From Candidatus Bathyarchaeota archaeon (GTDB lineage Archaea > Thermoproteota > Bathyarchaeia > Bathyarchaeales > Bathyarchaeaceae): 49,836 bases of DNA. The stretch is taken from contig JAUWDY010000009.1 of assembly GCA_030608565.1 (NCBI GenBank), positions 1-49,836 of the forward strand, given 5' to 3'. Shown here in pieces: positions 1 to 27,800 of the stretch; the first letter of the stretch is position 1; the number at the start of each line of letters is the position of its first letter. Position numbers and translations under genes: made by a program. The notes under the pieces are model-generated. The model was given only the letters and a program-made list of their open reading frames with translations. It ran no database searches and was not told the DNA's origin.

Positions 1-298
1 TTCTTATCCCTAAGTCAAGTTCTATAAGATAGAGAATAAAACTATAGCTATATGTGGCGAGGAATGCAAAGGCGAAAATAATGTTTAAGGTAAATCCGAC
101 AATAAATCCTAACACACTACTTTTGAAGGCTACGTCCTGAAGGCATATATAAAGAAATGCTAGCCAACCGATAGTAACAGACATTGTGAGAGCTAGAGAT
201 GTGTTTAATAACCTCGAAATATGTGAGTAGTAAGTCAAAATACCGTCTTTGTCCTTTTCCATTCTCCTTTCAATATTCCATAACCTTGAAGCCCACAT
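1..298 (-). CDS. Membrane protein, N-terminal part (runs off window)
   Basis: An open frame on the minus strand starts with ATG at 298 and continues past the left edge, giving the first 99 codons. A second possible start is the ATG at 262. Residues 1-33 are polar and charged. Two hydrophobic segments follow, at about 34-54 and 62-85, so it is an integral membrane protein with a cytosolic N-terminus likely. I do not recognise the family. Its upstream region shares the string AAGCCTCTGAAAA with the region before the small gene at 5682, which fits the repeated promoter pattern of this island. Confidence 0.6.
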   Translation of the reverse strand, partial: MWASRLWNIERRMEKDKDGILTYYSHISRLLNTSLALTMSVTIGWLAFLYICLQDVAFKSSVLGFIVGFTLNIIFAFAFLATYSYSFILYLIELDLGIR

Positions 299-402
299 AA
301 AGTTTGCTCCATTTTCACCTTTTTGAAAAAACCTACATAAACGAAATTTTCAGAGGCTTTTTCTCAAGCAAATAACAAGAAAGAATTCAAGTAGTAAATC
401 GT

Positions 403-1101
403 CTACAAACCTAAATATTCTTGCTCTTCTGCGACAAAATCCTTAATGACGTTTTTTGTTTCTGGACTTAGGTCTTCTTTGAATATCTCAATTAGATTGA
501 GCAACATTGAAGTGTTAAGTGTTCTAAACGCTTTAAGCAAAATGTCGGCATCTTTTCTGAATTCTGGTCTCTCTTGGGGTCTGATTTTTGGTTTACGCTC
601 GTACTTAACAAAGCGTGCCACAGCAGGCATTTTCGAATGAACAAAATCGTCCATGAAGTCCCGTGCATCTTTAAGGTGCTTTCGGTAGCTTGGTTTGATA
701 ACTTTTCTAACCTTTTTGAAAACCGTTCGTGTTCTTAATCGTCTTTCAAACCATAGTTTTGCATAGTCATTGGACTCCACAAAACAAAGGCAACAGGCAA
801 CACCATCCTGTAAATTTCTCATTAGTATCCACGCTTCATAGTAGTATCCTTGCATTACTGCATTGAACAAACATTTTGCAGAGACCATAAATTTTGAGGC
901 AAGGAGAACTGCTGCAATTTTGGATTCTGGTTTTAGAACCTTGCCTTCGATGACACTGAAGGCTTTGTCTATCAAATTGAGTGTCCGAGCAAGGACATTG
1001 ACAGATAGTTCATACCTCTGCAAATCCTGTGAAAAATACTGTTGTGAAAGTTTGATGTTCTGTTCTTCGCTTTCTTCTACATATTTGAAATAGTCAACCA
1101 T
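403..1101 (-). CDS. Hypothetical helical protein
   Basis: 232 residues, soluble and mostly alpha-helical as judged from its composition, with no signal peptide or clear membrane segment. The middle part (about residues 65-110) has a helical run with several Cys and aromatic residues (AWILMRNLQDGVACCLCF), and the C-terminal half is basic then acidic. The pattern recalls bacterial and archaeal DUF5677-like or AbiV-like helical proteins, but no motif is decisive and I do not assign a function. The ATG at 1101 has purine-rich sequence (GAGGAG, AAAGG) just upstream. It lies downstream of the tiny zinc-ribbon gene on the same strand, separated by a short palindrome. Confidence 0.7.
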   Translation of the reverse strand: MVDYFKYVEESEEQNIKLSQQYFSQDLQRYELSVNVLARTLNLIDKAFSVIEGKVLKPESKIAAVLLASKFMVSAKCLFNAVMQGYYYEAWILMRNLQDGVACCLCFVESNDYAKLWFERRLRTRTVFKKVRKVIKPSYRKHLKDARDFMDDFVHSKMPAVARFVKYERKPKIRPQERPEFRKDADILLKAFRTLNTSMLLNLIEIFKEDLSPETKNVIKDFVAEEQEYLGL

Positions 1102-1146
1102 TACCTTTCATTCTCCTCATATGTTCACTACCTCTGCAAACTATAA

Positions 1147-1163
1147 TCTTAGGGTGCCTAAGA
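1147..1163. terminator. Short palindrome between two minus-strand genes
   Basis: TCTTAGG and CCTAAGA form perfect 7-base arms around a 3-base loop. It lies between the end of the tiny zinc-ribbon gene and the start of the 232-residue gene. It could end the upstream transcript or be an operator; the sequence alone does not decide. Confidence 0.3.
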
Positions 1164-1175
1164 CTTGAACAAAAC

Positions 1176-1298
1176 CTACATAATTGGTTGTGCTATGACT
1201 TTTCCACATTGCTCACATTTCAAAGTTTCATATACGAGAATGAGGTTTAGATGTTCACATCCACATCGAATTTTCACAAACTGTAGTGTCCTAATCAT
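1176..1298 (-). CDS. Tiny zinc-ribbon protein (40 aa)
   Basis: A 40-residue frame with two metal-binding knuckles: CGC at residues 12-14 and CEQCGK at 28-33. Its ATG at 1298 comes one base after the TAA stop of the membrane protein gene upstream (TAAgATG), so translation is probably coupled. A second tiny protein at 8327-8461 has nearly the same layout (CxC, 13-14 residues, CxxCGK) and also directly follows a small membrane protein gene. Four cysteines in this spacing could bind one zinc. No function is known to me; a nucleic-acid-binding or partner role for the membrane protein is only a guess. Confidence 0.6.
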   Translation of the reverse strand: MIRTLQFVKIRCGCEHLNLILVYETLKCEQCGKVIAQPIM

Positions 1299-1299
1299 C

Positions 1300-1791
1300 T
1301 TACTTGTGACCATACCTAACAGATAGTGCATTACGAATTTCAAAAACAAAAAAAACTAGAACAAGACCTGCTGAAGAAGGTAAATACAGGGGAACAATGT
1401 TAGTTGAGTTTACGTAAATTGGAAGATAACTCGAAACAAACTCATTGAAAAGGAGTACTGCCTCAAAAGTAAGATAATAAACCAGTATTAAGGATGAGTA
1501 GAGTCTATATTTTGGACTATTTCTTACAGCACCATATCCTCTGAGAATAAAAAATAATATAGTAACAAGGGGAATGGTCCATCTAAGAAGGGTTAGATGA
1601 ATTGAAGATAATATCAGCTCTTCAGACAAACTCAAATATATAAATAATGTTCCTTGAAGAACTCCTATACCCTCAAGTAAGACAGAATCCTCTACTCTTA
1701 ATTCATTGAGAGAAGCCTTTTTCCACTTCAGTGAAAATCTTGTCGAAATAAAGTAGAATAACGCAATACCAATCCAATAAGAACACATCAC
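1300..1791 (-). CDS. Multi-pass membrane protein, N-terminus uncertain
   Basis: 163 residues from a GTG at 1791 (ATG at 1788 is the next option), with about four hydrophobic segments and little soluble sequence. Family not recognised. The frame stays open upstream to 1923 and encodes another hydrophobic stretch typical of this kind of protein, yet that extension contains no ATG, GTG or TTG in frame. An ATG preceded by GGGAG lies at 1916 in another frame. The simplest reading is a gene starting at 1916 with a one-base frameshift a few codons in, or a non-standard start. It is followed at once by the tiny zinc-ribbon gene. Confidence 0.55.
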   Translation of the reverse strand: MMCSYWIGIALFYFISTRFSLKWKKASLNELRVEDSVLLEGIGVLQGTLFIYLSLSEELILSSIHLTLLRWTIPLVTILFFILRGYGAVRNSPKYRLYSSLILVYYLTFEAVLLFNEFVSSYLPIYVNSTNIVPLYLPSSAGLVLVFFVFEIRNALSVRYGHK

Positions 1792-1991
1792 AAAAAGTAA
1801 ATGCTGAACGTATTTGTCAAAAGGAGTTATCGAGACATAACTTAATGGTTGAAATAACTGTATGATAATCGCAGGAACAAACCAAAAAAATCTTCTTAAT
1901 TGCAGATTAAGTTCATCTCCCGATTATCTGTTGGACCTATATTACCATAATCTATTAACTTTTCAAGCACATAAACTGTAACGATAGAAAT

Positions 1992-2468
1992 CTAGTCTTT
2001 CAGAATAGCTGTTTTAATCTCTTTCCAGAGATAAATGAACATTATTACAAATCCTGAAATATAGATAACAAAAAATATCCACAGTTGCGTCAAGCAAATT
2101 TCAGAAATGATTAATGGAATCATTAGGGGTAAGAGTACTCCCACAATCGCAAAATAGATGAAGGCAAATATTCCCACTCTCCAATACGGAGGAAACAGTA
2201 GAACATATAGTTGACGTTCATACAGCATTCTTTGAGCCTTCAAGATTTCAATTCTTGCAGCTCTCTTTGGATCGTATCCATATTTCGCTCCTCCTTTAGG
2301 TTGTAACTTTTCAAGTCCGTCAATTTCCGATGTAAGGTTATCCATTGTGTTCATGACTCTTTTTTTCTCAGAAGATATGGATAGAATCCTTGTTGTGTAG
2401 AACGCTCCTATAATAGCAACAAAAGATGCCCCACATTGTGCTGAAGCATACAACCAATTTTCGTACAT
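1992..2468 (-). CDS. Membrane protein with N-terminal TM and two C-terminal TMs
   Basis: 158 residues. The N-terminus (SAQCGASFVAIIGAF, about residues 9-23) matches a pattern often seen at the start of small bacterial and archaeal membrane proteins in which a helix containing AQ..A..VAI.GAF leads into an R-rich amphipathic turn. Residues 35-85 form a charged helical, probably coiled-coil, cytosolic part. Two strong transmembrane helices follow at about 98-122 and 128-150. Function unknown. It is the first gene of a minus-strand run with the 163-residue membrane protein and the tiny zinc ribbon, and it is divergent from the secreted-type gene at 2574. Confidence 0.65.
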   Translation of the reverse strand: MYENWLYASAQCGASFVAIIGAFYTTRILSISSEKKRVMNTMDNLTSEIDGLEKLQPKGGAKYGYDPKRAARIEILKAQRMLYERQLYVLLFPPYWRVGIFAFIYFAIVGVLLPLMIPLIISEICLTQLWIFFVIYISGFVIMFIYLWKEIKTAILKD

Positions 2469-2501
2469 TCAGATCGCCAATTGTATTTTCATTTTACAAA
2501 C

Positions 2502-2537
2502 ATAGAAGTTTCTTTCTTAAATCTTTAGTACAAGTTG
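2502..2537 (+). promoter_or_regulatory. Island repeat element, 5' type, copy 1
   Basis: Contains the core TTTCTTAAATCTTTAGTAC followed by AAGTTG, identical to copies at 5931 and 7660 apart from one base. The TTAAAT looks like an archaeal TATA box, and a gene starts 37 bases downstream. Identity continues well past the TATA box, so the element is more than a promoter core and may include an operator or a recombination junction. Confidence 0.6.
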
Positions 2538-2573
2538 TATGTATGTAATATAGAAAGTAAGAGGGTTGAAAAC

Positions 2574-3239
2574 ATGAACAGGGAGAAAATGCTATTATTC
2601 TGGTTGACATTTTGCTCTCTCTTAATCATCAAACCTATGTTAGTACAAGCCACAAATACGGTAGCCAGTGGGTGGCTGGGAACAGAAGACATATTATTTA
2701 CAATAAATGTCTCTTCTCCTTCGGGAACTGCCAATGAATGGGTAATCGGGGAAAACGTAACAGTAGATTTCCTTTTCCAGTCTTATCAACAACATTGGGG
2801 TTACGAGTGGGAGTATCCCTTGAAAATCCACCGTCTAGAGATTGAGATTTCTGGTGCTGGTATTTCACACAACAAAACAATAGCAACTGATAGAGTCCTG
2901 CATCAGTTTGAGTATTTAAGGCATACTACTGAAGTAAAGCCTGCATATTCTGGCGAAATCACAGGTAGTATTGATATTTCCTTTGAATCTAATGATCTAG
3001 CTCATGAAGGCTGGATGGATGAAAGACAGGAGAGATTTACGTTTCCAATAGCAGTAGCCAGACTTACAACATATGATAATCTATATGACAATTACGCTAG
3101 TTCTCAAAGTAATATCAGTTCTCTTCAGAACCAATTGAACAACATCAAAACTCTAATGTATGCATTTGTAGCTTCAACAATAATCCTCTTATTTACAACA
3201 ATCTACTTCGCAACAAGAAAATCTAAAGTTGGACAATGA
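2574..3239 (+). CDS. Secreted-type protein with C-terminal membrane anchor
   Basis: I place the start at the ATG at 2574, because from there the protein begins with a classic signal peptide (positively charged MNREK, then a hydrophobic stretch, then a small-residue cleavage region near VQA). The frame is open further upstream, to 2535. About 150 residues of beta-rich extracellular sequence with several N-x-S/T sites follow. Next come a short coiled coil (SNISSLQNQLNNIKT) and one transmembrane helix with a basic tail at the C-terminus. It is a surface-anchored protein of unknown function. It is preceded by the island repeat element and followed by a 55-base tail that is repeated behind the gene at 5975. 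Confidence 0.7.
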   Translation: MNREKMLLFWLTFCSLLIIKPMLVQATNTVASGWLGTEDILFTINVSSPSGTANEWVIGENVTVDFLFQSYQQHWGYEWEYPLKIHRLEIEISGAGISHNKTIATDRVLHQFEYLRHTTEVKPAYSGEITGSIDISFESNDLAHEGWMDERQERFTFPIAVARLTTYDNLYDNYASSQSNISSLQNQLNNIKTLMYAFVASTIILLFTTIYFATRKSKVGQ

Positions 3240-3247
3240 TGAAGCAC

Positions 3248-3302
3248 AAATAGTCAACCATTCCATTTTATAACTAAGCTAGATTATAGAATGAAGAAGT
3301 TA
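3248..3302. repeat. Island repeat element, 3' type, copy 1
   Basis: About 55 bases just behind the stop of the anchored protein gene, roughly three-quarters identical by eye to 6861-6916 behind the helical gene. The shared end is ATAGAATGAAGAAG. The 15-base string AAATAGTCAACCATT inside it also occurs at the start of the 232-residue gene near 1092. Confidence 0.5.
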
Positions 3303-3428
3303 CAGTTGTTAAAATCAAATGTTAATGCGGTCATGTAACCCTTATTCTCCGTATATGAAGTCTTTCATGTCTATGAACCTATTAAATGTGAGAAATGCCG
3401 TAAGATGTTAGTGAGGGAATGATGGTTT

Positions 3429-3965
3429 ATGACAATAGATGACGAATTATTCGTTGAACTATTTAAGCCACAGAGACTTGCAAAAATTGTGGGAACTCTA
3501 AAAGCTAAGGTTCAATTTGAAGAGCCAACATACTATTTTGGTCATTATGAAGACAGTGAAAGAGCATTTTCACCACCAAAATCTGAGCTTGTCAAAATGA
3601 CACCAGACATAACCGTCACATTTTCAAGAAAAAAGAACATTAGGGTTGCCATTGAACTTGAAAACGACATTAAATGGGATTTTGGCGAATCATTAAGACA
3701 ATTGAAGAAATACAAAGCCAAGTTTCGGGACACGAGAGTGATAATTCCAGAAGAATACAAACGATTTGCACCAATCTACAAGAATGAGGGTTTCCGTGTC
3801 TACCTTTGGAAGGCAAAACGAAAATGGCAATGTTTGAAATGCGGAACTATAACTGAGAAAGAAGGCCCAATTCAACCGCAATGTAAGAATGAGGATTGTA
3901 AGAACAAGAATCGAAATGAGTTTAGACTTGTTGGATTGCAGGACACAGAGATTTTGGAAGCCTAA
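3429..3965 (+). CDS. PD-(D/E)XK-like protein with C-terminal zinc ribbon
   Basis: 178 residues. The middle shows the layout of a restriction-endonuclease-like fold: PD at about residues 59-60 on one strand, then IELEN about 15 residues later, then a helix with SLRQLKKYK, and a following strand RVIIP. This matches the PD...(D/E)xK...QxxxY pattern, except that the lysine position reads E (ELE), so catalysis may be lost or the lysine may have moved. A zinc ribbon follows (CLKC at about 135, then two further Cys in a CxxxxC pair). It may be a nuclease, a nuclease-derived DNA-binding protein, or a defence component. It stands alone between orphan genes. Confidence 0.6.
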   Translation: MTIDDELFVELFKPQRLAKIVGTLKAKVQFEEPTYYFGHYEDSERAFSPPKSELVKMTPDITVTFSRKKNIRVAIELENDIKWDFGESLRQLKKYKAKFRDTRVIIPEEYKRFAPIYKNEGFRVYLWKAKRKWQCLKCGTITEKEGPIQPQCKNEDCKNKNRNEFRLVGLQDTEILEA

Positions 3966-3994
3966 TTACTCAATTGCTAAATGTGAGAAAGTGG

Positions 3995-4020
3995 AAAGTT
4001 TTTAGTGGAACAAAAGAACC
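3995..4020 (+). promoter_or_regulatory. Second shared upstream motif, copy 1
   Basis: AAAGTTTTTAGT followed by AACAAAAGAACC, 23 bases before the gene at 4043. Nearly the same string is at 4760-4787 before the gene at 4815. TTTAGT and the spacing resemble the main island element, so the two may be recognised by the same regulator. Confidence 0.4.
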
Positions 4021-4042
4021 ATCAGAATTATGAAGTGTTAGG

Positions 4043-4495
4043 ATGCAGTTCTTTTATTTGTCAGACGAAATTACTGGAACCGAACACAACTATCTCATTC
4101 TATCATTAGAGAAAAAACAATTTGAGCGCATCAGAGAATTGTGCGAAGAATATATTCCTTCCATTTCCTGTTCTGCTGTAATTCGTAAAGGACATCCTTT
4201 CATCGCTGTTGATTATGGGTTTTGGGGGTCCTTTAAGTACGCTATACCTCTTGATGAAGTCTTTTACAGTGGTGAAAAATTAGGTGATAAACTTAAAGTC
4301 GGTGATGTCTTAACCGTTATTTTGACCGCTCATCCTCAAGATAGGGTAATAACCCTCTCCAAAAAGAAAGTGTCTTTTAATGTTCCATTGGAAGAAATTC
4401 TTGCATTCAGTTTTGAATACACGAAAGAAATGGACGAAATCTACACTTTCTACAAATTGATCCAACGTCTTCAATCAACCAGAACTAAGGCTTAA
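4043..4495 (+). CDS. Hypothetical protein with possible S1/OB-like module
   Basis: 150 residues, soluble. Residues about 50-110 resemble an S1-type OB fold: a hydrophobic strand around a Gly-rich turn (DYGFWGSFKYAIP), then LKVGDVLTVILTAH, then DRVITLSKKK, which is the usual ending of an S1 repeat. On that basis it could bind RNA or single-stranded DNA, but the match is by eye only. The N-terminal 40 residues are acidic and helical. The start ATG at 4043 fits a shared upstream motif at 3995-4020. The small membrane protein gene downstream may be co-transcribed. Confidence 0.6.
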   Translation: MQFFYLSDEITGTEHNYLILSLEKKQFERIRELCEEYIPSISCSAVIRKGHPFIAVDYGFWGSFKYAIPLDEVFYSGEKLGDKLKVGDVLTVILTAHPQDRVITLSKKKVSFNVPLEEILAFSFEYTKEMDEIYTFYKLIQRLQSTRTKA

Positions 4496-4530
4496 AATGT
4501 TGAAAGAGCAAGTAGATTTGGAGATTTGAT

Positions 4531-4740
4531 TTGACAGAATATCGTAGGAGCAAACGCAGAGATTTCATCCTTTTGGTTTATGGAATTTTTTTGGGAATGT
4601 TTGGAAATCTTATTGCAGAAATTCTCCTTAAGATATATTCTCCTTTGCCTGAGGAGTTGCCTATGCTTTTGTTAGTCATGCATATAATGTTAGGTTTCTG
4701 TTTGGTTTCCGCATTCTTGGCATTATGGAGATTTGGATAG
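4531..4740 (+). CDS. Small two-helix membrane protein
   Basis: 69 residues from a TTG at 4531. A basic N-terminus (YRRSKRRD) is followed by two transmembrane helices at about 12-32 and 43-66, so both ends are probably cytosolic. There is no motif and I do not know a function. It lies 35 bases behind the S1-like gene on the same strand. Confidence 0.5.
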   Translation: MTEYRRSKRRDFILLVYGIFLGMFGNLIAEILLKIYSPLPEELPMLLLVMHIMLGFCLVSAFLALWRFG

Positions 4741-4757
4741 AATCATACATGAAAACC

Positions 4758-4787
4758 TTAAAGTTTTTAGTTCAAACCAAAAGAACT
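4758..4787 (+). promoter_or_regulatory. Second shared upstream motif, copy 2
   Basis: TTAAAGTTTTTAGT followed by TCAAACCAAAAGAAC, 28 bases before the gene at 4815. It matches 3995-4020 and also the TTAAA..TTTAGT.CAA core of the main island element, linking the two motif groups. Confidence 0.4.
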
Positions 4788-4814
4788 AATTGACATAAGA
4801 GAGAATTTCTTTTT

Positions 4815-5549
4815 ATGCTATCTGAGAAAATCTATTGGATTATTCTGATTGTAGGTTTGATTGTCTTTGTGTCTCTGATAGGACTTGTGCTTATCCCTTG
4901 TCGGATTCTTGACTACAACCTGGGAATCAACCTAATCTCTGAAAGTATTGGAATATTGTTTACCATAGTTTTCTTGACTTGGCTATTTAATTTGAGAGAG
5001 AAAAATCAATGGAAAGTCGTCGAGAATGAAGTTTATTCTGACATACAAATGGAAATAGCTTCCTTATTTAATGCCATTTTGGATTATGTCGAAGGGGGGC
5101 TTAAGCTAAAAGTAACAGCTCTAGGAAAACAAGACAAGGAGACAAGAAAGAAGAGTCTTATTGTATTGCAAGAGTTGAAAGATACTGAAAAAATGAAGCT
5201 CAATGATGTTCTGCTATATACACTTTTGGAAAACAGAAATTCAACGGAGATTTTTTCAGAAATAGCACGGAGACTTAGCGATATAGAGAGGAAATACTCC
5301 AAATTCTTGTCTGCGGAAATCACTCTTTCTTTGATGCGGCTTCAAATTGCTATACAGGGGCTTAATGGTGTTTTAACTCTATACTCAAAATACTCAAAAA
5401 GCAAATTGATAAGGAAGACACTACCCAAGAAGTTGGAAGCGGAAATTATGAAAATTGACTATGCGGAATTGGTTGGGTTTTCTTTCAAAAGGTTGATAGA
5501 AGAAATACACAAGCTACATAGGATAGGAATTGAATTCACCTATCCTTAG
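4815..5549 (+). CDS. Two-TM protein with cytosolic helical domain
   Basis: 244 residues. Two transmembrane helices at about 7-29 and 38-60 are followed by LREKNQWKVVENEV and a long helical cytosolic part. The sequence NLGINLISESIGILFTIVF resembles a recurring family of bacterial and archaeal membrane proteins in which the second helix leads into an R/W-rich juxtamembrane segment. Function is unknown. The general design, a membrane anchor with a helical sensor-like domain, is also seen in the gene at 8831-9607. The start ATG is close behind a shared upstream motif. Confidence 0.65.
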   Translation: MLSEKIYWIILIVGLIVFVSLIGLVLIPCRILDYNLGINLISESIGILFTIVFLTWLFNLREKNQWKVVENEVYSDIQMEIASLFNAILDYVEGGLKLKVTALGKQDKETRKKSLIVLQELKDTEKMKLNDVLLYTLLENRNSTEIFSEIARRLSDIERKYSKFLSAEITLSLMRLQIAIQGLNGVLTLYSKYSKSKLIRKTLPKKLEAEIMKIDYAELVGFSFKRLIEEIHKLHRIGIEFTYP

Positions 5550-5625
5550 AATTCACAAAATTTCTTTCCAATTCGACTTTTGAAAGTCGCCTTATGTATT
5601 GTTTTTCTGAGATAAGCCTCTGAAA

Positions 5626-5646
5626 ACTTTAAGTCTGTTTAGTCAC
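5626..5646 (+). promoter_or_regulatory. Divergent copy of the shared upstream motif
   Basis: ACTTTAAGTCTGTTTAGTCAC keeps the TTAA, TTTAGT and CA positions of the island element. It is preceded by AAGCCTCTGAAAA, which also occurs before the gene cut by the left window edge. Confidence 0.3.
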
Positions 5647-5681
5647 TCTAATGTTTGAATGATAGGAGGAAACAAAATCCC

Positions 5682-5906
5682 ATGAAGATTACACGACATG
5701 GAATGCTGCATGCAGATGAATCAAACATACATATATGCGGATACAAAATTGATGCAGAGGGACAACCTGCAGATGGAGAAGAACTAGTCAAAGCAGTTTT
5801 AGAATATCTGTTTAAAGCATTAGAAAACAAATGGATAAATTTAGAGTTTACGTGTAATGAGGTGGAAAACGCACAATCAGATGATGTGCGTGCTCAAGCA
5901 AGATGA
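5682..5906 (+). CDS. Small hypothetical protein
   Basis: 74 residues from the ATG at 5682, chosen because an AGGAGG ribosome binding site ends 11 bases upstream; the frame is open to an ATG at 5655. It begins MKITRHGMLHADESNIHICG and ends in an acidic helical part. No cysteine motif or membrane segment is seen. The stop codon lies inside CAAGCAAGATGAAG, the first part of an island junction repeat that runs straight into the promoter of the next gene. Confidence 0.55.
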   Translation: MKITRHGMLHADESNIHICGYKIDAEGQPADGEELVKAVLEYLFKALENKWINLEFTCNEVENAQSDDVRAQAR

Positions 5907-5962
5907 AGGAAACACTACCCTAGAAGGCTCTTTCTTAAATCTTTAGTACGAGTTGAAACAAT
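5895..5962 (+). repeat. Full island junction element
   Basis: The most complete copy: CAAGCAAGATGAAG and AAACACTACCCTAGAAGG (3'-end part), followed directly by TTTCTTAAATCTTTAGTAC and GAGTTGAAACAAT (5' part). The first half recurs at 7957-7991 and, more weakly, at 6839-6860. The second half recurs at 2502-2537 and 7660-7691. This is the joint expected between two neighbouring cassettes that carry the same ends. Confidence 0.6.
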
Positions 5963-5974
5963 GTATTAGAAAAG

Positions 5975-6850
5975 TTGAAGGTGCACTATGAAATGGAGGA
6001 TGTAGCTTCTTATTATGCAAACGTAGAGCCTTCATATTATCTTTTAAAAGAGACACTTAGACGAACACCGAGAGAAGAAATTCTTCAAATCATAAGACAG
6101 AAAGTGATTGTTTCCGATTTAGATTCTGTTCTTCTCAGAGATGCGACTGAGTTCCTTCGGCTATCTATTCTTAATCTTCTAGCCTCCAAGTTTTTAATGT
6201 CTGGGAGCTTCTTAGCTTGGGGGGAAGTGACCAACTATTATGGGGCTTTCTATTCAATTAATTGTCTCTTGAGATTGAAAGGGTTTGCCTTAGTTCACAT
6301 AGATTACGTTGATGAGAAAGTTCTTAGAGTTCAGATTGAAAGAATAAAGGATAAACATGAATACAAACTACATCAATGGAAAAAAGGCAACCCACACCAA
6401 TTCTTATGGAAAAAATTCTCTCACTTTTATCCTGAATTGTGTAGTCCAGGTTTAGGAGAGATTCTAATCCAACAGAGAATAAGGTGGAACTATGATCTCT
6501 TCTTTCCCTCACAAAGCATGAGTGACTATGCAAAAGAAGAAGCGAAAATTAGATGGGAAAACAACTTCCTAGATCCCAACTTTGGGAACTATGCTAATCC
6601 AGATGCAGCTGAATACTACGCTGACCTTATGGCACAAATAGGATATCATGAGGCTGGCTTGGGAGATTACATACAACAATGCATACATGCTTTTACCACA
6701 ATAGCAGGTAAATCAAAATACAAGACATGGTACCTTTCATACTTCGAGGAACTGGCAAGAGGTATAGAAGACTTTGGTTCTCACCCAGATACAATAAGAG
6801 AAATTCAAAATTGGCTAAGATCATCTATTGTTAATCTTCAAACAAGATGA
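5975..6850 (+). CDS. Hypothetical helical protein (HEPN-like pattern possible)
   Basis: 291 residues from a TTG at 5975; GTG at 5981 or ATG at 5993 are also possible. It is soluble and helical, rich in Tyr and Trp. Residues about 55-105 (a hydrophobic helix, then WGEVTNYYGAFYSINCLLRLKG) recall helix pairs of HEPN-type proteins, where an aromatic-rich helix precedes an A/L-rich one, but the RNase motif RxxxxH is not evident. I therefore leave the function open. The gene carries the island element at both ends. Confidence 0.6.
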   Translation: MKVHYEMEDVASYYANVEPSYYLLKETLRRTPREEILQIIRQKVIVSDLDSVLLRDATEFLRLSILNLLASKFLMSGSFLAWGEVTNYYGAFYSINCLLRLKGFALVHIDYVDEKVLRVQIERIKDKHEYKLHQWKKGNPHQFLWKKFSHFYPELCSPGLGEILIQQRIRWNYDLFFPSQSMSDYAKEEAKIRWENNFLDPNFGNYANPDAAEYYADLMAQIGYHEAGLGDYIQQCIHAFTTIAGKSKYKTWYLSYFEELARGIEDFGSHPDTIREIQNWLRSSIVNLQTR

Positions 6851-6916
6851 AGTAAACACCAAATACTCAACTATTCCGTCCTTTCTAACTATGCTAGGTC
6901 ATAGAATGAAGAAGCT
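6839..6916. repeat. Island repeat element, 3' type, copy 2
   Basis: Begins at the gene end with CAAACAAGATGAAGTAAACACC. From 6861 it is about three-quarters identical by eye to 3248-3302 behind the anchored protein gene, ending ATAGAATGAAGAAG. Two genes (2574 and 5975) thus share both their upstream and their downstream element. Confidence 0.5.
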
Positions 6917-6968
6917 AATCCGATAGAGCCTAAGTCAAAGAACATTTTGATTTAGACTAATCAGTGTT

Positions 6969-7634
6969 TCAAGGAGATGTTATGTTTATACTCGCTGCTG
7001 CACGAAAGAGAAGATTAGACCGAATGTAACCAGAGTTTACACTTGGTATGAATGCTTCAATGTAGTATATGCCTGGTTCAATTTTTTCACCGAATTGAAT
7101 GTTCAGAGACTTGGTTTGGTTCCAAATGAAGTTTCTTTCAAGAGACTCATTTGGTCTTACCGAGAATTCTGTGATACTTCTGTGGAATGGATTATACCAC
7201 ACTTGATAATTGCCCTCTATACTGACTACAACGGGGTCACTTACTGCTGACTCAAAAGAGTGTGTGATGAAACCAAGATTCTTAAGAGATACTGTGATTT
7301 TCACATATTCACCAAGTATGTAGGTTGACTTGTCAGTTGTAACTGAGAAAGACCATTTCGGAGTGATAATAGTCCAGACTGAATGTGTAACAAATCCCCC
7401 TATCATTATCATGCTAAATGTAAGGAGCCCCATTTTCTTGCCGCTCAACTTCCTCTCGCCAGCAAGTAGAGGTTGAACAAGAAAGGCGTACATGCAAGAA
7501 ATAGCGATTACATAGGCAAATGCTAACCAAAGAATTTGAACCAGATAGAGTCTCGTATACAGAGCTGTCAAGCCTACAGCTGTTAGAAAGAATACTACGA
7601 CACAGAATGCCAGAATGTACAATCTAAACTTCAT
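6969..7634 (-). CDS. Membrane protein with extracellular beta-sandwich domain
   Basis: 221 residues. Three transmembrane helices (about 5-25, 32-55 and 68-90) are followed by a beta-rich domain from about residue 95 to the end. Its sequence (LGEYVKITVSLKNLG early, GIYYIEAFIP late) looks like an immunoglobulin-like or BsuPI-type intracellular proteinase inhibitor fold, a domain that archaea often place outside the cell. N-x-S/T sites are present. It could bind a ligand or another surface protein. It is divergent from the zinc-ribbon gene at 7719, and the island element lies between them. Confidence 0.6.
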   Translation of the reverse strand: MKFRLYILAFCVVVFFLTAVGLTALYTRLYLVQILWLAFAYVIAISCMYAFLVQPLLAGERKLSGKKMGLLTFSMIMIGGFVTHSVWTIITPKWSFSVTTDKSTYILGEYVKITVSLKNLGFITHSFESAVSDPVVVSIEGNYQVWYNPFHRSITEFSVRPNESLERNFIWNQTKSLNIQFGEKIEPGIYYIEAFIPSVNSGYIRSNLLFRAAASINITSP

Positions 7635-7659
7635 TTCTACTTCATATATCAGCTCAAAC

Positions 7660-7691
7660 TTTCTTAAATCTTTAGTACAAGTTGAAACAAT
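7660..7691 (+). promoter_or_regulatory. Island repeat element, 5' type, copy 3
   Basis: TTTCTTAAATCTTTAGTAC followed by AAGTTGAAACAAT, matching the copies at 2513 and 5931. The zinc-ribbon gene starts 28 bases further on. Confidence 0.6.
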
Positions 7692-7718
7692 AGTTAAACT
7701 ACAGGATAGGTGATTGCT

Positions 7719-7910
7719 ATGCCCAAGATAACTATTCCAAATAAATGTGCAAAATGTGGCTCAGAGAATATTAAAACAGAAGAATTGGCTATGGGTAGGA
7801 AGCATGGGGCACTCGGAGGCGGAGGTAGAGGTTACATATTCAATGTCTACATTTGTGAAGAATGTGGCTATTCAGAGCTTTACTTCAAAGAACGTACTAT
7901 ATGGGTTTAA
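7719..7910 (+). CDS. Zinc-ribbon protein (COG3478-like)
   Basis: 63 residues from the ATG at 7719; GTG at 7710 would add three. Two CxxC knuckles (CAKCGSENI and CEECGYSELY) flank a Gly-rich middle. This layout, ending in a CGY.E.Y pattern, resembles the small predicted nucleic-acid-binding Zn-ribbon proteins of COG3478 (PF09855 type). Role unknown. It carries the island repeat upstream, and half of the junction element starts about 45 bases behind the stop. Confidence 0.65.
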   Translation: MPKITIPNKCAKCGSENIKTEELAMGRKHGALGGGGRGYIFNVYICEECGYSELYFKERTIWV

Positions 7911-8326
7911 ATAATACACAGGCTATTCAATAGCTATTTCCATTGAATACTAATATCAAGCAAGATGAAGTAAACATTACTATAGAAGTTCTGAAAATCT
8001 TCTAGAAGAATCTTTCACAAACCTCATTAAGCATCAATCGTCTTTCTCTAGATTGCCATTCTCTGAAAGAGAAAGGAGAGACATATACATCCTAGGAGGG
8101 AGCTATTTCCCCTCACATACTTAGCTCCCTCCTACGATCTGTTAAATCTCTTCCTTTACCATTTTAAGTCCAGATTCCCTTTTCTTGATTTAGGAAAATA
8201 TAGTCAAGATATTCACCTTATAGTTTCTTTCTTGCTTGTGAAACAGGTTTAGGAAACTATCAAATGTATTCTACAAGGAAAGAGAGGTCTTCAGTCCAAC
8301 TAAAGACGTTAGAAACTGGGTAGATA
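7911..8326. other. Gene-free stretch with half junction element and hairpin
   Basis: No convincing gene. It holds the first half of the island junction repeat at 7957-7991 (CAAGCAAGATGAAG onwards) and a strong hairpin at 8093-8134. The remainder is AT-rich. Confidence 0.5.
8093..8134. terminator. Perfect 13-bp hairpin
   Basis: TAGGAGGGAGCTA and TAGCTCCCTCCTA are exact inverse complements separated by 16 bases. It lies between the plus-strand zinc-ribbon gene and the convergent minus-strand tiny zinc-ribbon gene, so a two-way terminator is the simple reading. Because one arm contains GGAGG, it could also be a structured RNA. Confidence 0.5.
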
Positions 8327-8461
8327 CTATGTTGTTCTTCTTTTCTTTCTATCCACAGAAAGGAGGAGTTTGCCACATTGTGGGCATTTAACAGGACAGT
8401 CGTAGAGGAGTCCTTTGTACTCGTATCCACATTGACACTTGGCATGAACCGTTTCTGACAT
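8327..8461 (-). CDS. Tiny zinc-ribbon protein (44 aa)
   Basis: A 44-residue frame with CQC at 9-11 and CPQCGK at 26-31, and a basic tail (DRKKRRTT). The ATG at 8461 is preceded by AAGGTGCTGAGGA, a fair ribosome binding site. It starts 24 bases after the stop of the small membrane protein gene at 8486-8725. The Cys layout (CxC, 14 residues, CxxCGK) matches the 40-residue protein at 1176-1298, which also follows a membrane protein gene. It probably folds around one zinc; the basic tail would suit nucleic acid or membrane contact. Function unknown. Confidence 0.6.
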   Translation of the reverse strand: MSETVHAKCQCGYEYKGLLYDCPVKCPQCGKLLLSVDRKKRRTT

Positions 8462-8485
8462 TTCCTCAGCACCTTTGTCTCTTAT

Positions 8486-8725
8486 CTAAGTTGGAACTTG
8501 ATGTTTATCTTCTTCTTTTCTTCCATATTCTGAGACTATCCAACCAACAACAACCAACACAACCCCTATGAACACTAGAGGAAAAGCATAGTCTCTATAT
8601 GGATAAATGGGAATGACTCCATACCACATTTCTGACCAAATGTAAGCAATCAATGCAAAAAGGAAAGAGATACAGCCTATAACAAAACAAGTTAGACCTA
8701 ACATTTTCATATCTGAATATTGCAT
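8486..8725 (-). CDS. Small two-helix membrane protein
   Basis: 79 residues from an ATG at 8725; ATG at 8710 is an alternative. Two transmembrane helices at about 8-28 and 45-66 are joined by an aromatic loop (MWYGVIPIYPYRDYAF), and the tail is charged (EYGRKEEDKHQ). No family recognised. It forms a pair with the tiny zinc-ribbon gene 24 bases downstream. Confidence 0.55.
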   Translation of the reverse strand: MQYSDMKMLGLTCFVIGCISFLFALIAYIWSEMWYGVIPIYPYRDYAFPLVFIGVVLVVVGWIVSEYGRKEEDKHQVPT

Positions 8726-8830
8726 GTGTAAACCCTAGAAATGAGTTTACGATTTGTATTAAAAAACTATCTGAGTATGTATGTTAAGCTAGAATTAATG
8801 TTATTATGCGTAAATCGTTCATAGGTCAAA

Positions 8831-9607
8831 CTAGATGGGCTTACTGATATATTTCTTGAGTAGAGGAAGTAATTTCCCTCTAACTTCATTGTCATTTTGT
8901 TTCTTTAGTTTCTTATGCTTATCTACAATATTTGCTATCTCTGGTTTGGCTTTATCCATAAGTGCTTTGAAGATTTCATCATAATTGATGACTCCTTTTT
9001 GCCATTTAATAACAAACGGTCTCTCTGCTATTTTCTTGCGAATATAAGAAGTTCTAGCCAAAATGCATCCTTCTATCTTATTTCTGATCTCTTCATCTCT
9101 TCCATTCAAGAGGAGAGCCAGTACATTATATTGGTTCATGGATGTCAAGAGGTCTTGTGCAATGGAGTTACTTACACCTGCAACCTCACTAGGCAGAGAT
9201 TTACTACTCAGACAATTTGACCAAATATCACGTACTTTTATCCTTGACTCCTTTCCTAGAGAATCAAAATCTCTGAATTTGGGAAGAATATTCCTTTTGA
9301 AAGAATCAACAACTAGATACAAATCTCTATGATGGTTCTTCATAAACTCATCTAGCCCTTCGTTGTATATTGTCGCTAGTCTTGGATAACTGAAGTTTAC
9401 AAATGGTTTCTCAAGATAGTTATCCAGAAGTTCTGAATTCTTTCTTATTTCATTAAATAGTGGTCGATACTCGTCTTTGACTGTACTAGTTATGTGTTCT
9501 CGTAGGGTTTGTTTCTTCTGTCTTTTGCTACCTAGGAGATAACCAATTATGGCTGTAACTAATGCTAGAGCAATTTGTAGAATCCATTGAACCCATTCAC
9601 CATTCAT
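8831..9607 (-). CDS. Single-TM protein with cytosolic helical domain
   Basis: 258 residues from the ATG at 9607, preferred over an in-frame TTG at 9616. One transmembrane helix at about 6-27 is followed by a basic stop-transfer (GSKRQKKQ) and about 230 residues of charged helical sequence ending in Lys-rich segments. There is no enzymatic motif. A TATA-like string (CTTATTTTATAG read on the minus strand) lies about 30 bases upstream, suggesting a very short leader. It may be a membrane-tethered scaffold or effector; unknown. Confidence 0.6.
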   Translation of the reverse strand: MNGEWVQWILQIALALVTAIIGYLLGSKRQKKQTLREHITSTVKDEYRPLFNEIRKNSELLDNYLEKPFVNFSYPRLATIYNEGLDEFMKNHHRDLYLVVDSFKRNILPKFRDFDSLGKESRIKVRDIWSNCLSSKSLPSEVAGVSNSIAQDLLTSMNQYNVLALLLNGRDEEIRNKIEGCILARTSYIRKKIAERPFVIKWQKGVINYDEIFKALMDKAKPEIANIVDKHKKLKKQNDNEVRGKLLPLLKKYISKPI

Positions 9608-9721
9608 TTCTATCAAACAGTAGTTGTAGTTGCTATAAAATAAGTGTAATTCTTAATGAATTAGAAAAGACTATATCTCAATAAATCCCCTTCTTCTTTA
9701 TCGTTTAGGAATGTGGTATGA

Positions 9722-10123
9722 TTGAGGATACCTGAATATCCGATTATTCTATACATCATGATAATACTCCTTTTGTTTGTTTGCTCCCTTGGTGTGTTTG
9801 TTATTGAAATGACTATTGAACCTGAATATATCCCATCAATCCTTGAGGGTTTAACATCATCTATAAGTATCATGATAGGATTTACTGCAACAATCCTTGC
9901 TATCATGTTTCAGAGAAGTAAGTTAAGACTCTCACCATTATACCTTGAGTTGGTGATTACTGCAATGATGTTATCCATTTGTGTTTTGTTTTTAACATAC
10001 TTCACTCTGGTAATGCAAGGAAACTTTCAACAAGCTCTTAGATATGGAATGTTCGACTTGATTCTTACTTTTTGTATACTTACTAGTCTCTTGAATTTCC
10101 TATACATAAAAATACGTGAATGA
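9722..10123 (+). CDS. Four-helix membrane protein
   Basis: 133 residues from a TTG at 9722. Four hydrophobic segments lie at about 7-30, 42-65, 75-98 and 108-130, with a short basic stretch (QRSKLR) between the second and third. Almost no soluble part, no family recognised. It is the last gene of the accessory island before the conserved archaeal block. Confidence 0.55.
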   Translation: MRIPEYPIILYIMIILLLFVCSLGVFVIEMTIEPEYIPSILEGLTSSISIMIGFTATILAIMFQRSKLRLSPLYLELVITAMMLSICVLFLTYFTLVMQGNFQQALRYGMFDLILTFCILTSLLNFLYIKIRE

Positions 10124-10594
10124 CTCTCTATTCCACAATATCTCTCAACTCTATAGAGTTACTCTTCTTCTCTGGTTTGTCTTGCTCTTTCCTTTTCTAT
10201 TCTCTCTCTTTCCTCTGCTTTGCATGCAGTACTTTCTTTTTAAGTATTAGATAAAAAAAGAGAGATTATGGAGATAGATTCTTTTCTAGCTCTCTTAAAG
10301 CATTGAATACCCTTTGTCTTAGTTCTTTGATAGCAGGACTCCACTATCATACACAAGTTCTGTGTTTTCAGGTCATAAGAAATGTTGTTTCACCTTTGTT
10401 GCCCTGTGCAACGCTACCCTCTCTCACCAAACAATGTCGAAACTCTCAGAGAGAGAATGTTAAAATCCTATACATGGTAATGTGCAAAAACACCATACAG
10501 TACAAAATTAACCTTAAAATCACTCCTAACCCAGAATTCAACATAGTAGTGATACGAAAAGGGTTACTTGAATGAATACCTTCTTAAAAAAGGG
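10124..10594. other. Gene-poor boundary with possible gene remnants
   Basis: No intact gene is supported. Read on the minus strand, three short pieces look like coding sequence (near 10140-10210, 10267-10340 and 10376-10440), each with a stop and no start, as expected from decayed genes. A 13-base direct repeat (AAAAGGGTTACTT) at the right edge overlaps the end of the DHH gene. Confidence 0.35.
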
Positions 10595-24829: not shown

Positions 24830-27800
24830 ATGCCGTACATTAAAAAAATCGAGTTAAGAGGCTTCAAATCTTTTGGTCCGAAAACCGCTAGCATAACACT
24901 AGATAAAGGCTTCACAGTGCTCACTGGGCCAAACGGAAGCGGAAAAACCAACATTGTAGATGCGGTCTTATTCGGGTTGGGCGAACTGAGTGCTAGAAGA
25001 CTGCGCGCCGAAAATTTTGCAAAACTCATTTTTCACGGTTCCCCTAATGCGGGTGTAGAAAAAGCGAAAGCTGCAAAAGTTGTTATTCAATTTGACAATA
25101 ATGACCATCGCATACCAGTTGGCACCAACACTGTAACCATTTCTCGTGAAGTCCGCAGGAATGGTCAAAGCGTTTATCGGCTCAACGGGAGGAGGATTTC
25201 AAGATTTCGCATAGTCGAAATGTTATCTATGGCGGGGATCAGCCCAACCGGACACAACATTATTGTGCAGGGAACAATCACGCGCATGGCTGAGGTCTCT
25301 CCTCATGAACGCAGAAGAATCATAGAGGACTTGGTTGGCATTGCTCAATACGACGTTGAAAAGGCTGAGGCCGAAGAAAAGCTTCGAGCCGCCGAAATAT
25401 CTATTCGGACGGCCATGGGGCGAATAGACGAAGTGCAGAAAAGAGTTGACGACCTGGAAAGAGAACGTAATGACCTACTTTGTTGCACTTTCATCCAAAA
25501 TGAAATCAAACGATTTGAAGCTATGAAACTCTCTCATGACATTTCGGAAGTGAAGAAAAAAATCGAAAAGATAGCGTCCAATGTTGAAGAGGTTGGCACC
25601 AGAGTTGAAAAATTAAGGCAATTAAGAGAAGGTCTCAGAACTCAGCGTCATGAGGTTGAAACAGAATGGAGAAAACTCAGCTCAGAAACGGTGGAGGAAG
25701 GCAGTACACAAGTTCTTGAAGTTCAAATAAAGATAGGTGACATCAAATCGAAATTGACTGAACTGACGACCAAGATAAGCGCAGGAACAATGAGTCTCGA
25801 AGGGCTCAAGAAGGTGAGAGAGAATAGCCTTCAACAGTTAGAGCCTATTAAGAACGAGATCGCTGAAAGCCGCAAGAAAGTTCAACAATTGAAACGGCAA
25901 CATGATCGTTTATCCAAAGAGGTTGCAATTAAACGGTCCGAACACGACTCCGTCTCAAGTGAAGCAGCACAACTAAGAGCAAATTTAGGCGGAAACAGTA
26001 AGAAAATCAGGGAAATGGAGCAACAATTAGACAAACTTTATCAAAATCTGTTCGTTCTTCGAAGCGGTCACGCCAGAAGTCAAGCCACAATTAAAGTACT
26101 TTCACGCAGACTAAACGACATCAACGCTCGCAAGGAGAGATTCACGTCTAGCCTTGAAGCACTCAAAAAATCTTTTAGAGACCTTAAAGAGGTGAAGAAA
26201 AAGCAAGAAAAGCAACTTAAAACTCTTCAACAAGCACTGGAACGAAAAAAAGTGCAAAAAGAGTCCATGGAGAAGGAGATTGTTGAAGCCGGCAAAATCG
26301 CTGGCACTGCTCGAGAGGCCGTGGTGGAATTTGCTACTCAGCGGAAATTGGCTGAACGTATTGCAAGAGAGGAAAAGGCGTTAAGGAACATCGAAGAGCT
26401 TGGAGAACTTGGCGTCATCCCGGGCATATATGGGCGACTCAGAAACTTAATCACGATAGATCGTGGTTACGAACAAGCAATAGAGGCAGCTTCAGCTGGC
26501 TGGTTGAATTCCATTGTTGTCCAAGATTTTAACGTTGCATTCACATGTACGGAAACACTTACACGCTTGAAGCTAGGTAGAATCAAGATAATCCCTGTTC
26601 AAGAATTATCTAATATCAAGCCTGTGAGGCCTCAGAAAATCAGAGATGCAAGCGGGACCGCCTCCATGTTTGTTAAATGCGCAAAACAGTATGAACCCGC
26701 GGTTGTTTTCGTTTTTGGAGACACTTTGATAACGAGGGATGATAAGACTGCGCTCTCTGTTTCTCGGGACGGCTATCGAACGGCTACCGTTAACGGAAAT
26801 GTTTACGAGACTGGTGGAGGGATAGAAAGTGGTTATTATCGTGCTCCTATCGACTTTTCTTCAATTATTCCAAGCGAGTCAGCCGTCGAGAGCTTGAACC
26901 AGGCAGTAAGTGCCCTTCAGGAACACTTGGTAAGAAGAGAAACTGACGTAACCAGCTTCGAAGAAGAGATTGGCAAAAACCGAGTAGAATTCACTCGATT
27001 AACGGAGGCAATACGCACACTTGAAGGTGAAATTGAACGAATACACAAAAGCATCAAATATACCAAACGAAACGTTAAGCGCATCGATAAACACGTTCAA
27101 AACGTGCAAGTGCGTCTAGAAAAAGAGAAAGCACAAATAGTTCTTCACAAGGCACAGCGTAACGCTATCAACAGAGAAATACAAAAACTACGTAACGAAT
27201 TGATTAATTTACGACGAAAAGTGGATTTAACTCAGATTCAGGAAATGGAGATTCAGAAGGAAAGGTTAGGAGATGGAATTATAGAGTTACGGCAAAATCT
27301 TGGCAGCATAGAAACTGAACTTGCAACTCTTCAATCCAAGTTGAATAACGTTCTCAAATTAGGTGCCGATAACATTAGGATTCAACTTCGAAAGGTAAGA
27401 CAACAGTTTTCCACTGTTGAAAAAGAAGTTGGAGAAGCCCTTGAACAGAAGGAGATGCTTGAAAGAGAGCTTCCCGAACTTGAGAAGTCCAAGGAAGACT
27501 TGTCTCGTTCAATTTTAACCGCTAGGAAAGAATCCAAGAAATTTACGTCTCGAATTGACTACATTGACAAGAGGTTGCACCGATATGACCCAGAGTATGA
27601 GCGAGCCGATCAGTTGTTCAACAAGCTTCAACTCAACCTACAAACATTCCAACTACAGCTGGATCAACGTAACCTTCAATTGAAGGAGTTTGGTTACGAA
27701 GAAACCTTGGAAGTATCGCCGAAACAACTTGAATTAGCTGAATCATCTGTTAAATTGATGCGTTTCGAGCTGGAAAGACTTGGTGCTGTGAATCAGTTAG

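Follow-up and report, generated by a model that had tools for sequence, protein, structure and literature searches.

Putative promoter and 3'-end repeats common to unrelated accessory genes in integrative islands of one Bathyarchaeia family

The ways in which archaea acquire and express new accessory genes are poorly known, above all in uncultured groups. In phage morons, a foreign gene that brings a promoter and a terminator of its own has been inserted singly in a mobile genome; to our knowledge, one promoter and one terminator sequence are not normally common to them. Repeated promoters have been described in halovirus HF2, whose dispersed intergenic repeats of 29-58 bp are proven promoters, with class II repeats acting in both directions (PMC8707807). 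Bidirectional promoters of P. furiosus direct transcription from two starts lying 49 bp apart, using one near-symmetric TATA box (PMC6640164).

Here we analyzed a stretch of 49,836 nucleotides (the window) from a Candidatus Bathyarchaeota genome of 1.76 Mb in 45 contigs, labelled G000, in which unrelated orphan genes share one repeat at their beginning (head) and another at their end (tail). Positions 1-10582 of the window are the right-hand portion of an integrated element, on a contig ending at base 1. We consider it probable that the heads are copies of one strong archaeal core promoter, which probably works in both directions, and that the tails are copies of one 3'-UTR/terminator, common to an accessory-gene pool in mobile islands.

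Layout and spread of the repeats

The original prediction had described cassette-like genes with repeats on both sides, and all of the repeats were found at the places described. The head TTTCTTAAATCTTTAGTAC occurs exactly at 2513, 5931 and 7660, embedded in a longer repeat of 33-60 nt, and the tail CAAGCAAGATGAAG is present at 5895 and 7957, with CAAACAAGATGAAG at 6839 (Table 1). The core at 5894-5926 recurs at 7956-7988 with 88% identity. A second tail repeat (3247-3302 versus 6860-6917, 83% identical) was likewise recovered, the second half of the first long tail recurring at the latter position, and at the supposed joint between two units the end element 5894-5926 indeed passes into the start element 5918-5962. 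The heads had been placed before three plus-strand genes. These positions are right, but at two of the three sites the head also lies directly upstream of a minus-strand gene (1992-2468 and 6969-7634), and it reads as a better promoter on the minus strand; head 2 has no convincing minus-strand gene alongside it. No known defence or virus families were found among the window genes, weak matches to pAgo and AbiH (E about 0.005-0.008) not being trusted.

Table 1. Features of the window and of the element to which it is assigned (positions in the window unless a contig of G000 is named)
Feature	Position	Strand	Context	Match or remark
Integrated mobile element, right-hand part	1..10582		Contig ends at base 1	GC 0.35 vs about 0.44 in flank
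Other end of element (putative)	C45:1-7849		Tyrosine recombinase at C45:6610-7779
Orphan membrane-like protein	1992..2468	-	Divergent from head 1	No Pfam/PADLOC match
Head 1	2502..2542		About 41 nt, between divergent genes 1992-2468(-) and 2574-3239(+)	nhmmer E=1.9e-11 (profile member); exact 19-mer
Orphan protein	2574..3239	+		Signal peptide and C-terminal membrane helix, by eye
Tail, divergent long form	3218..3329	+	Overlaps stop of gene 2574-3239	nhmmer E=6e-16 (copy used in building profile)
Tail core	5894..5926	+	Includes stop codon of ORF 5655-5906 (..QAR*)	E=1.1e-6
Head 2	5918..5962		Directly after tail 5894-5926, before gene 5993-6850(+)	nhmmer E=2.6e-11 (profile member); exact 19-mer
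Orphan gene	5993..6850	+	Between head 2 and tail 6824	No family match
Tail, long form	6824..6941	+	Includes stop codon of gene 5993-6850 (..QTR*)	E=4.7e-22 (profile member); E=6.8e-7 in iterated core profile
Orphan membrane-like protein	6969..7634	-	Divergent from head 3	No family match
Head 3	7658..7690		Between divergent genes 6969-7634(-) and 7719-7910(+)	nhmmer E=1.2e-8 (profile member); exact 19-mer
Zinc-ribbon protein	7719..7910	+	Between head 3 and tail 7938	PF09855 E=1.8e-5
Tail	7938..7989	+	Behind zinc-ribbon gene 7719-7910	E=9e-12
Block B, non-coding	7985..8354		Recurs in G000 C45, G003 C5 and C12
Block C, dispersed non-coding	10241..10346		Island edge in G000 C45 (34241-34328)
Block C', dispersed	10378..10553	-	Closely behind DHH gene

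Both repeats are far more frequent than expected. The 34-nt head has two matches in the window and none in 100 shuffles of it, and G000 as a whole contains 11 heads with at most two mismatches and six tails, against none for the reversed head and for the tail control. A profile search of the genome and its relatives, which had been proposed as a check, recovered head and tail in genomes of the same family. Among 31 genomes, which are assemblies of varying completeness, the head (at most two mismatches) was found in 14. All of these belong to the same family as the window, and the 12 genomes from other families of the order have no copy. The exact 19-mer of the head occurs in the GTDB genome collection in Candidatus Bathyarchaeota MAGs and in two bacterial (Jeotgalicoccus) records, taken as chance; the IMG/VR viral collection contains no exact head match. 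With the 19-mer confined to Bathyarchaeota MAGs and the head to its own family, the element is therefore lineage-specific. Because independently assembled relatives carry copies, the repeats are not an assembly artefact, as had been feared.

Three further non-coding repeats lie downstream of the last unit. A shorter part of block B (about 8178-8339) is found behind tails in G003 (contigs C4, C5 and C38) and elsewhere. In the window, block B adjoins the 3' side of a small zinc-ribbon ORF in convergent orientation, 8327-8461(-); this unlisted ORF of 44 aa (MSETVHAKCQCGYEYKG..) was found in C17:14197-14330, too. A copy of block C' at G000 C21:8600-8775, 91% identical, lies directly behind a ubiX-like gene, so that two core genes without relation to each other (ubiX-like and DHH) have this block closely behind their stop codons; it contains ATCACT..AGTGAT, a possible hairpin.

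Promoter anatomy of the head and 3'-end character of the tail

On its minus strand, the head reads ATCATTTCAACTTGTAC-TAAAG(BRE)-ATTTAAG(TATA)-AAAGAAACTTCTATA, and the minus-strand consensus over 63 aligned copies, atcaTTtcAAcTTGTACTAAAGATTTAAGAAAgAaacTtctat, shows the TAAAG/ATTTAAG promoter and, after it, an initiator-like end that is conserved as well. In many copies, two of the three in the window among them, a start codon on the minus strand comes 10-60 nt past this end, and plus-strand genes lie on the opposite side. At the sequence level the head thus combines BRE, TATA box and a downstream gene start, as an archaeal core promoter does. A good BRE is present on the minus strand only. At 20 of 46 heads, compared to 18% at random, each side has the start of an ORF of at least 70 aa no more than 150 nt away, which is the layout of a bidirectional promoter. 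Because the minus-strand BRE and TATA box are good and the head often sits between divergent genes (window 2502 and 7659), it is probably best explained as a shared core promoter, and from the gene layout we infer that it is probably bidirectional. Binding of TBP to the near-symmetric TATA box would permit transcription both ways, with starts predicted about 45-50 nt apart, at both ends of the conserved block; the direction and strength of transcription are likewise predicted. Two other interpretations of the head were rejected. One copy (C6) has an inverted repeat that is nearly perfect and suggested a palindromic operator, but this fails over 63 copies (P 0.22), and the likeness to a CRISPR repeat (GTTTC..GAAAC) concerns single dispersed copies, with no array at the copies examined.

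The tail core (consensus attgaAtAc.AATaTCAAGCAAGATGAAGTAAACACtAa, 34 copies) lies immediately behind stop codons and often includes the stop itself, as in CAAGCAAGATGA (QAR*). It belongs to a motif of about 60 nt that lacks structure and is T-rich downstream: a T-rich stretch follows 56% of the copies versus 20% at random, an enrichment that leaves some copies without one. A sense ORF of at least 100 aa ends between -130 and +15 of the core in 17 of the 34 copies, against 10% at random (P 6e-9), and on the antisense strand ORF ends were found at 6 of 34. Elsewhere, too, the tail recurs behind numerous genes that are unrelated to one another, guaA-like and D-aminoacyl-tRNA-deacylase-like ones among them (named by sequence reading, without family search); in relatives, the unrelated genes upstream of tails include housekeeping types, again named by eye. 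No conserved fold was detected in the tail, there being no consensus structure in 14 tails, no hairpin in the core and DNA folding z-scores of -0.15 to 2.24. As to known RNA families, only two far-off tRNA matches and weak chance matches were obtained, and the tail was not assigned to any. The simplest reading is probably that of a 3'-UTR/terminator at which transcription would end, although a terminator need not be conserved over the length of the tail.

Heads and tails are combined on the same strand. In G000, a head on the same strand lies no more than 1.5 kb upstream of four of the six tails, where 0.03 would be expected (P 7e-9, treating copies as independent, like all P-values here). Same-strand heads within 1.5 kb were also found for 2/7 tails in G003, 2/13 in G009 and 1/1 in G010, and for 0/7 upstream in G008; a tail was never paired with an opposite-strand head in the genomes counted. 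Because this pairing is far above chance, head-gene-tail is a real pattern of putative transcription units on unrelated genes. The original prediction had offered a regulon under one control element as an alternative, and the head does look like a promoter common to the genes. An ordinary promoter and 3'-UTR motif of a regulon, with an island turnover unrelated to the repeats, would fit the promoter anatomy, the conserved upstream half ATCATTTCAAGTT of the head and cases in which several species share a gene together with its head (L024/L047, L031/L044/L055). On its own, however, it leaves unexplained why heads and tails are paired on unrelated genes, why they are concentrated in islands and why blocks B, C and C' are kept while genes change, and we regard it as rather unlikely.

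MITE-like ends, in which the head would form the left end and tail-B-C the right end of an element around passenger genes, would account for the dispersed copies, for within-genome tail similarity that extends to 100-240 nt and for blocks at island edges. However, head and tail are unrelated sequences rather than inverted repeats of each other, heads without tails and tails without heads are both common (many occur singly), and tails are sense-oriented just behind stops. Moreover, none of the element ends that were inspected showed a target-site duplication, and direct repeats were seen at island junctions rather than at head or tail. We therefore consider such ends very improbable.

Integrated islands and turnover of their genes

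The original prediction had seen no integrase, yet the island does have one, located on contig C45 at its opposite end, across the contig break. An empty site was found directly after the DHH gene in G001, G002 and G003, a congener about 95-97% identical to G000 (G001 is a further species). The G003 flank, here 97% identical, leads back to G000 contig C45:7850, and it is this comparison that ties the C45 junction to the window, contiguous sequence between them being absent. Both junctions carry a repeated att core, CTTTTTTAAG. The recombinase on C45 belongs to the phage-integrase family (Pfam E=9e-8) and has two ParB-like proteins and a PAS sensor kinase as neighbours. Insertion was right after the stop of the DHH-phosphoesterase gene. 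Because of the low GC, the empty sites, the second junction with its shared att core and the integrase, we assign window positions 1-10582 to one end of an integrated element with an unassembled middle, inserted by a tyrosine recombinase after the DHH-phosphoesterase gene; integrase at the end, direct att repeat and empty site are those of an integrated mobile element.

Several other features of these islands were observed. An 85-aa protein (G000 C45:3065-3322, G003 C31:83029-83286, E 1e-46) is common to the window's element and the ubiX island of G003 and is a possible marker of the element family. A 414-aa protein at G000 C21:4513-5757 (L024) looks like a tyrosine recombinase by eye (WMGH..Y); it has no Pfam or PHROGs match. 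A repeat of about 60 nt at G000 C45:22834-22894 and 25421-25483 (L027:2834-2894, 5421-5483) is dispersed and perhaps palindromic; G003 has some 15 copies of it or more, which lie in either orientation.

Comparison with relatives revealed gene turnover. G000 C45:22834-34240 and G003 C5:75397-86842 form a collinear core; beyond it both genomes carry block C, block B and heads, and the genes differ, collinearity stopping in G000 exactly where block C starts. The region behind the ubiX-like gene (flavoprotein family) comprises about 120 nt in G001, about 1.4 kb in G000 (block C', a head and a PLD-like gene, PF13091 E=1e-22) and 9 kb in G003, so that this site holds zero, one or many genes across the three genomes. 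The interval between thiI-like and ABC-type genes (named by eye) is empty in G001, holds 3 kb in G000 and has other DNA from the same point in G003; its junctions carry TACTGTTC. The site was thus empty or nearly so in the third species at two of the three compared loci. Some genes sit with their signals in different islands: the PLD-like gene with its head is on C21 in G000 and C5 in G003, and another gene with head and block B is on C45 in G000 and C12 in G003. Head-gene-tail units differ between relatives. At the heads themselves the picture is mixed. Similarity ends at the head in five pairs from four independent loci (L024/L106, L024/L047, L022/L102, L027/L110 and L030/L149), while synteny runs unbroken through other heads (L032/L103, L031/L044/L055), as it would for a plain promoter; breakpoints at the head are also expected if a promoter merely stays with its own gene.

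What stands of the proposed gain or swapping of modular units is that genes change between preserved flanks and non-coding blocks, at two hot spots and one att-like site. The repeats themselves do not appear to be the sites of cassette recombination. No IntI-type integrase (TIGR02249) exceeded the cut-off in any of 19 genomes, only general tyrosine recombinases being found, and together with the missing tail fold this led us to reject an integron/attC array. A dedicated exchange in which head and/or tail are recombination sites, integron-like or other, acted on in trans by one of the many tyrosine recombinases, would agree with the similarity breaks at the head, with the 0-1-many hot spot, with the joint 5894-5962 and with the many tyrosine recombinases of element-rich genomes. 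Nevertheless, besides the lack of an integron integrase, the tail folds neither as DNA nor as RNA, the head arms lack pairing covariation (P 0.22), island junctions use other, att-like sequences (CTTTTTTAAG, TACTGTTC) and the head has full promoter anatomy; we regard dedicated exchange as improbable.

Our verdict is that of a mosaic accessory-gene pool in integrative islands with putative common transcription signals, in which accessory genes with nothing else in common carry the same heads and tails, both in integrated mobile elements and in hot-spot islands, within one Bathyarchaeia family. In 12 genomes, head plus tail number rises with PF00589 integrase number (rho 0.80, P 0.002), a correlation that genome size and completeness confound. 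It is plausible that exchange takes place at these signals by homologous recombination, the repeats perhaps serving as short homologies through which one-gene units, like phage morons, would be exchanged. It is a tentative further idea that the standard signal pair of the whole family acts as interchangeable plugs, with any gene so flanked being swapped or stacked between islands by short-homology recombination, without recombinase sites of the system's own.

Comparison with known systems

If promoter and end signal are common to many genes, a new gene could be expressed as soon as it arrives and recombination would find a foothold, a simple way to modular gene gain that needs no integron. The elements also provide a handle for locating mobile islands and orphan accessory genes in Bathyarchaeia.

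As in archaeal integrons (PMC9668308), small genes without relation to one another follow each other in arrays with similar elements between them, but the islands differ in having no IntI over the cut-off and no attC-like fold, and in that their units have promoter-like elements and vary in orientation. The HF2 repeats include CTAAAGACTTAGAA / TCTTTAAGTC, which resemble the head in style (PMC8707807). Their positions are conserved within one virus genus, whereas the heads are spread over many islands and genomes and are paired with a 3' repeat. The head spans about the start-to-start distance of the P. furiosus promoters, whose reverse transcripts are thought to be non-functional (PMC6640164), whereas here both sides often carry genes. 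Each part by itself, whether promoter, 3' end or integrated element, is ordinary; what is unusual is their combination, with one putative signal pair on many unrelated mobile genes.
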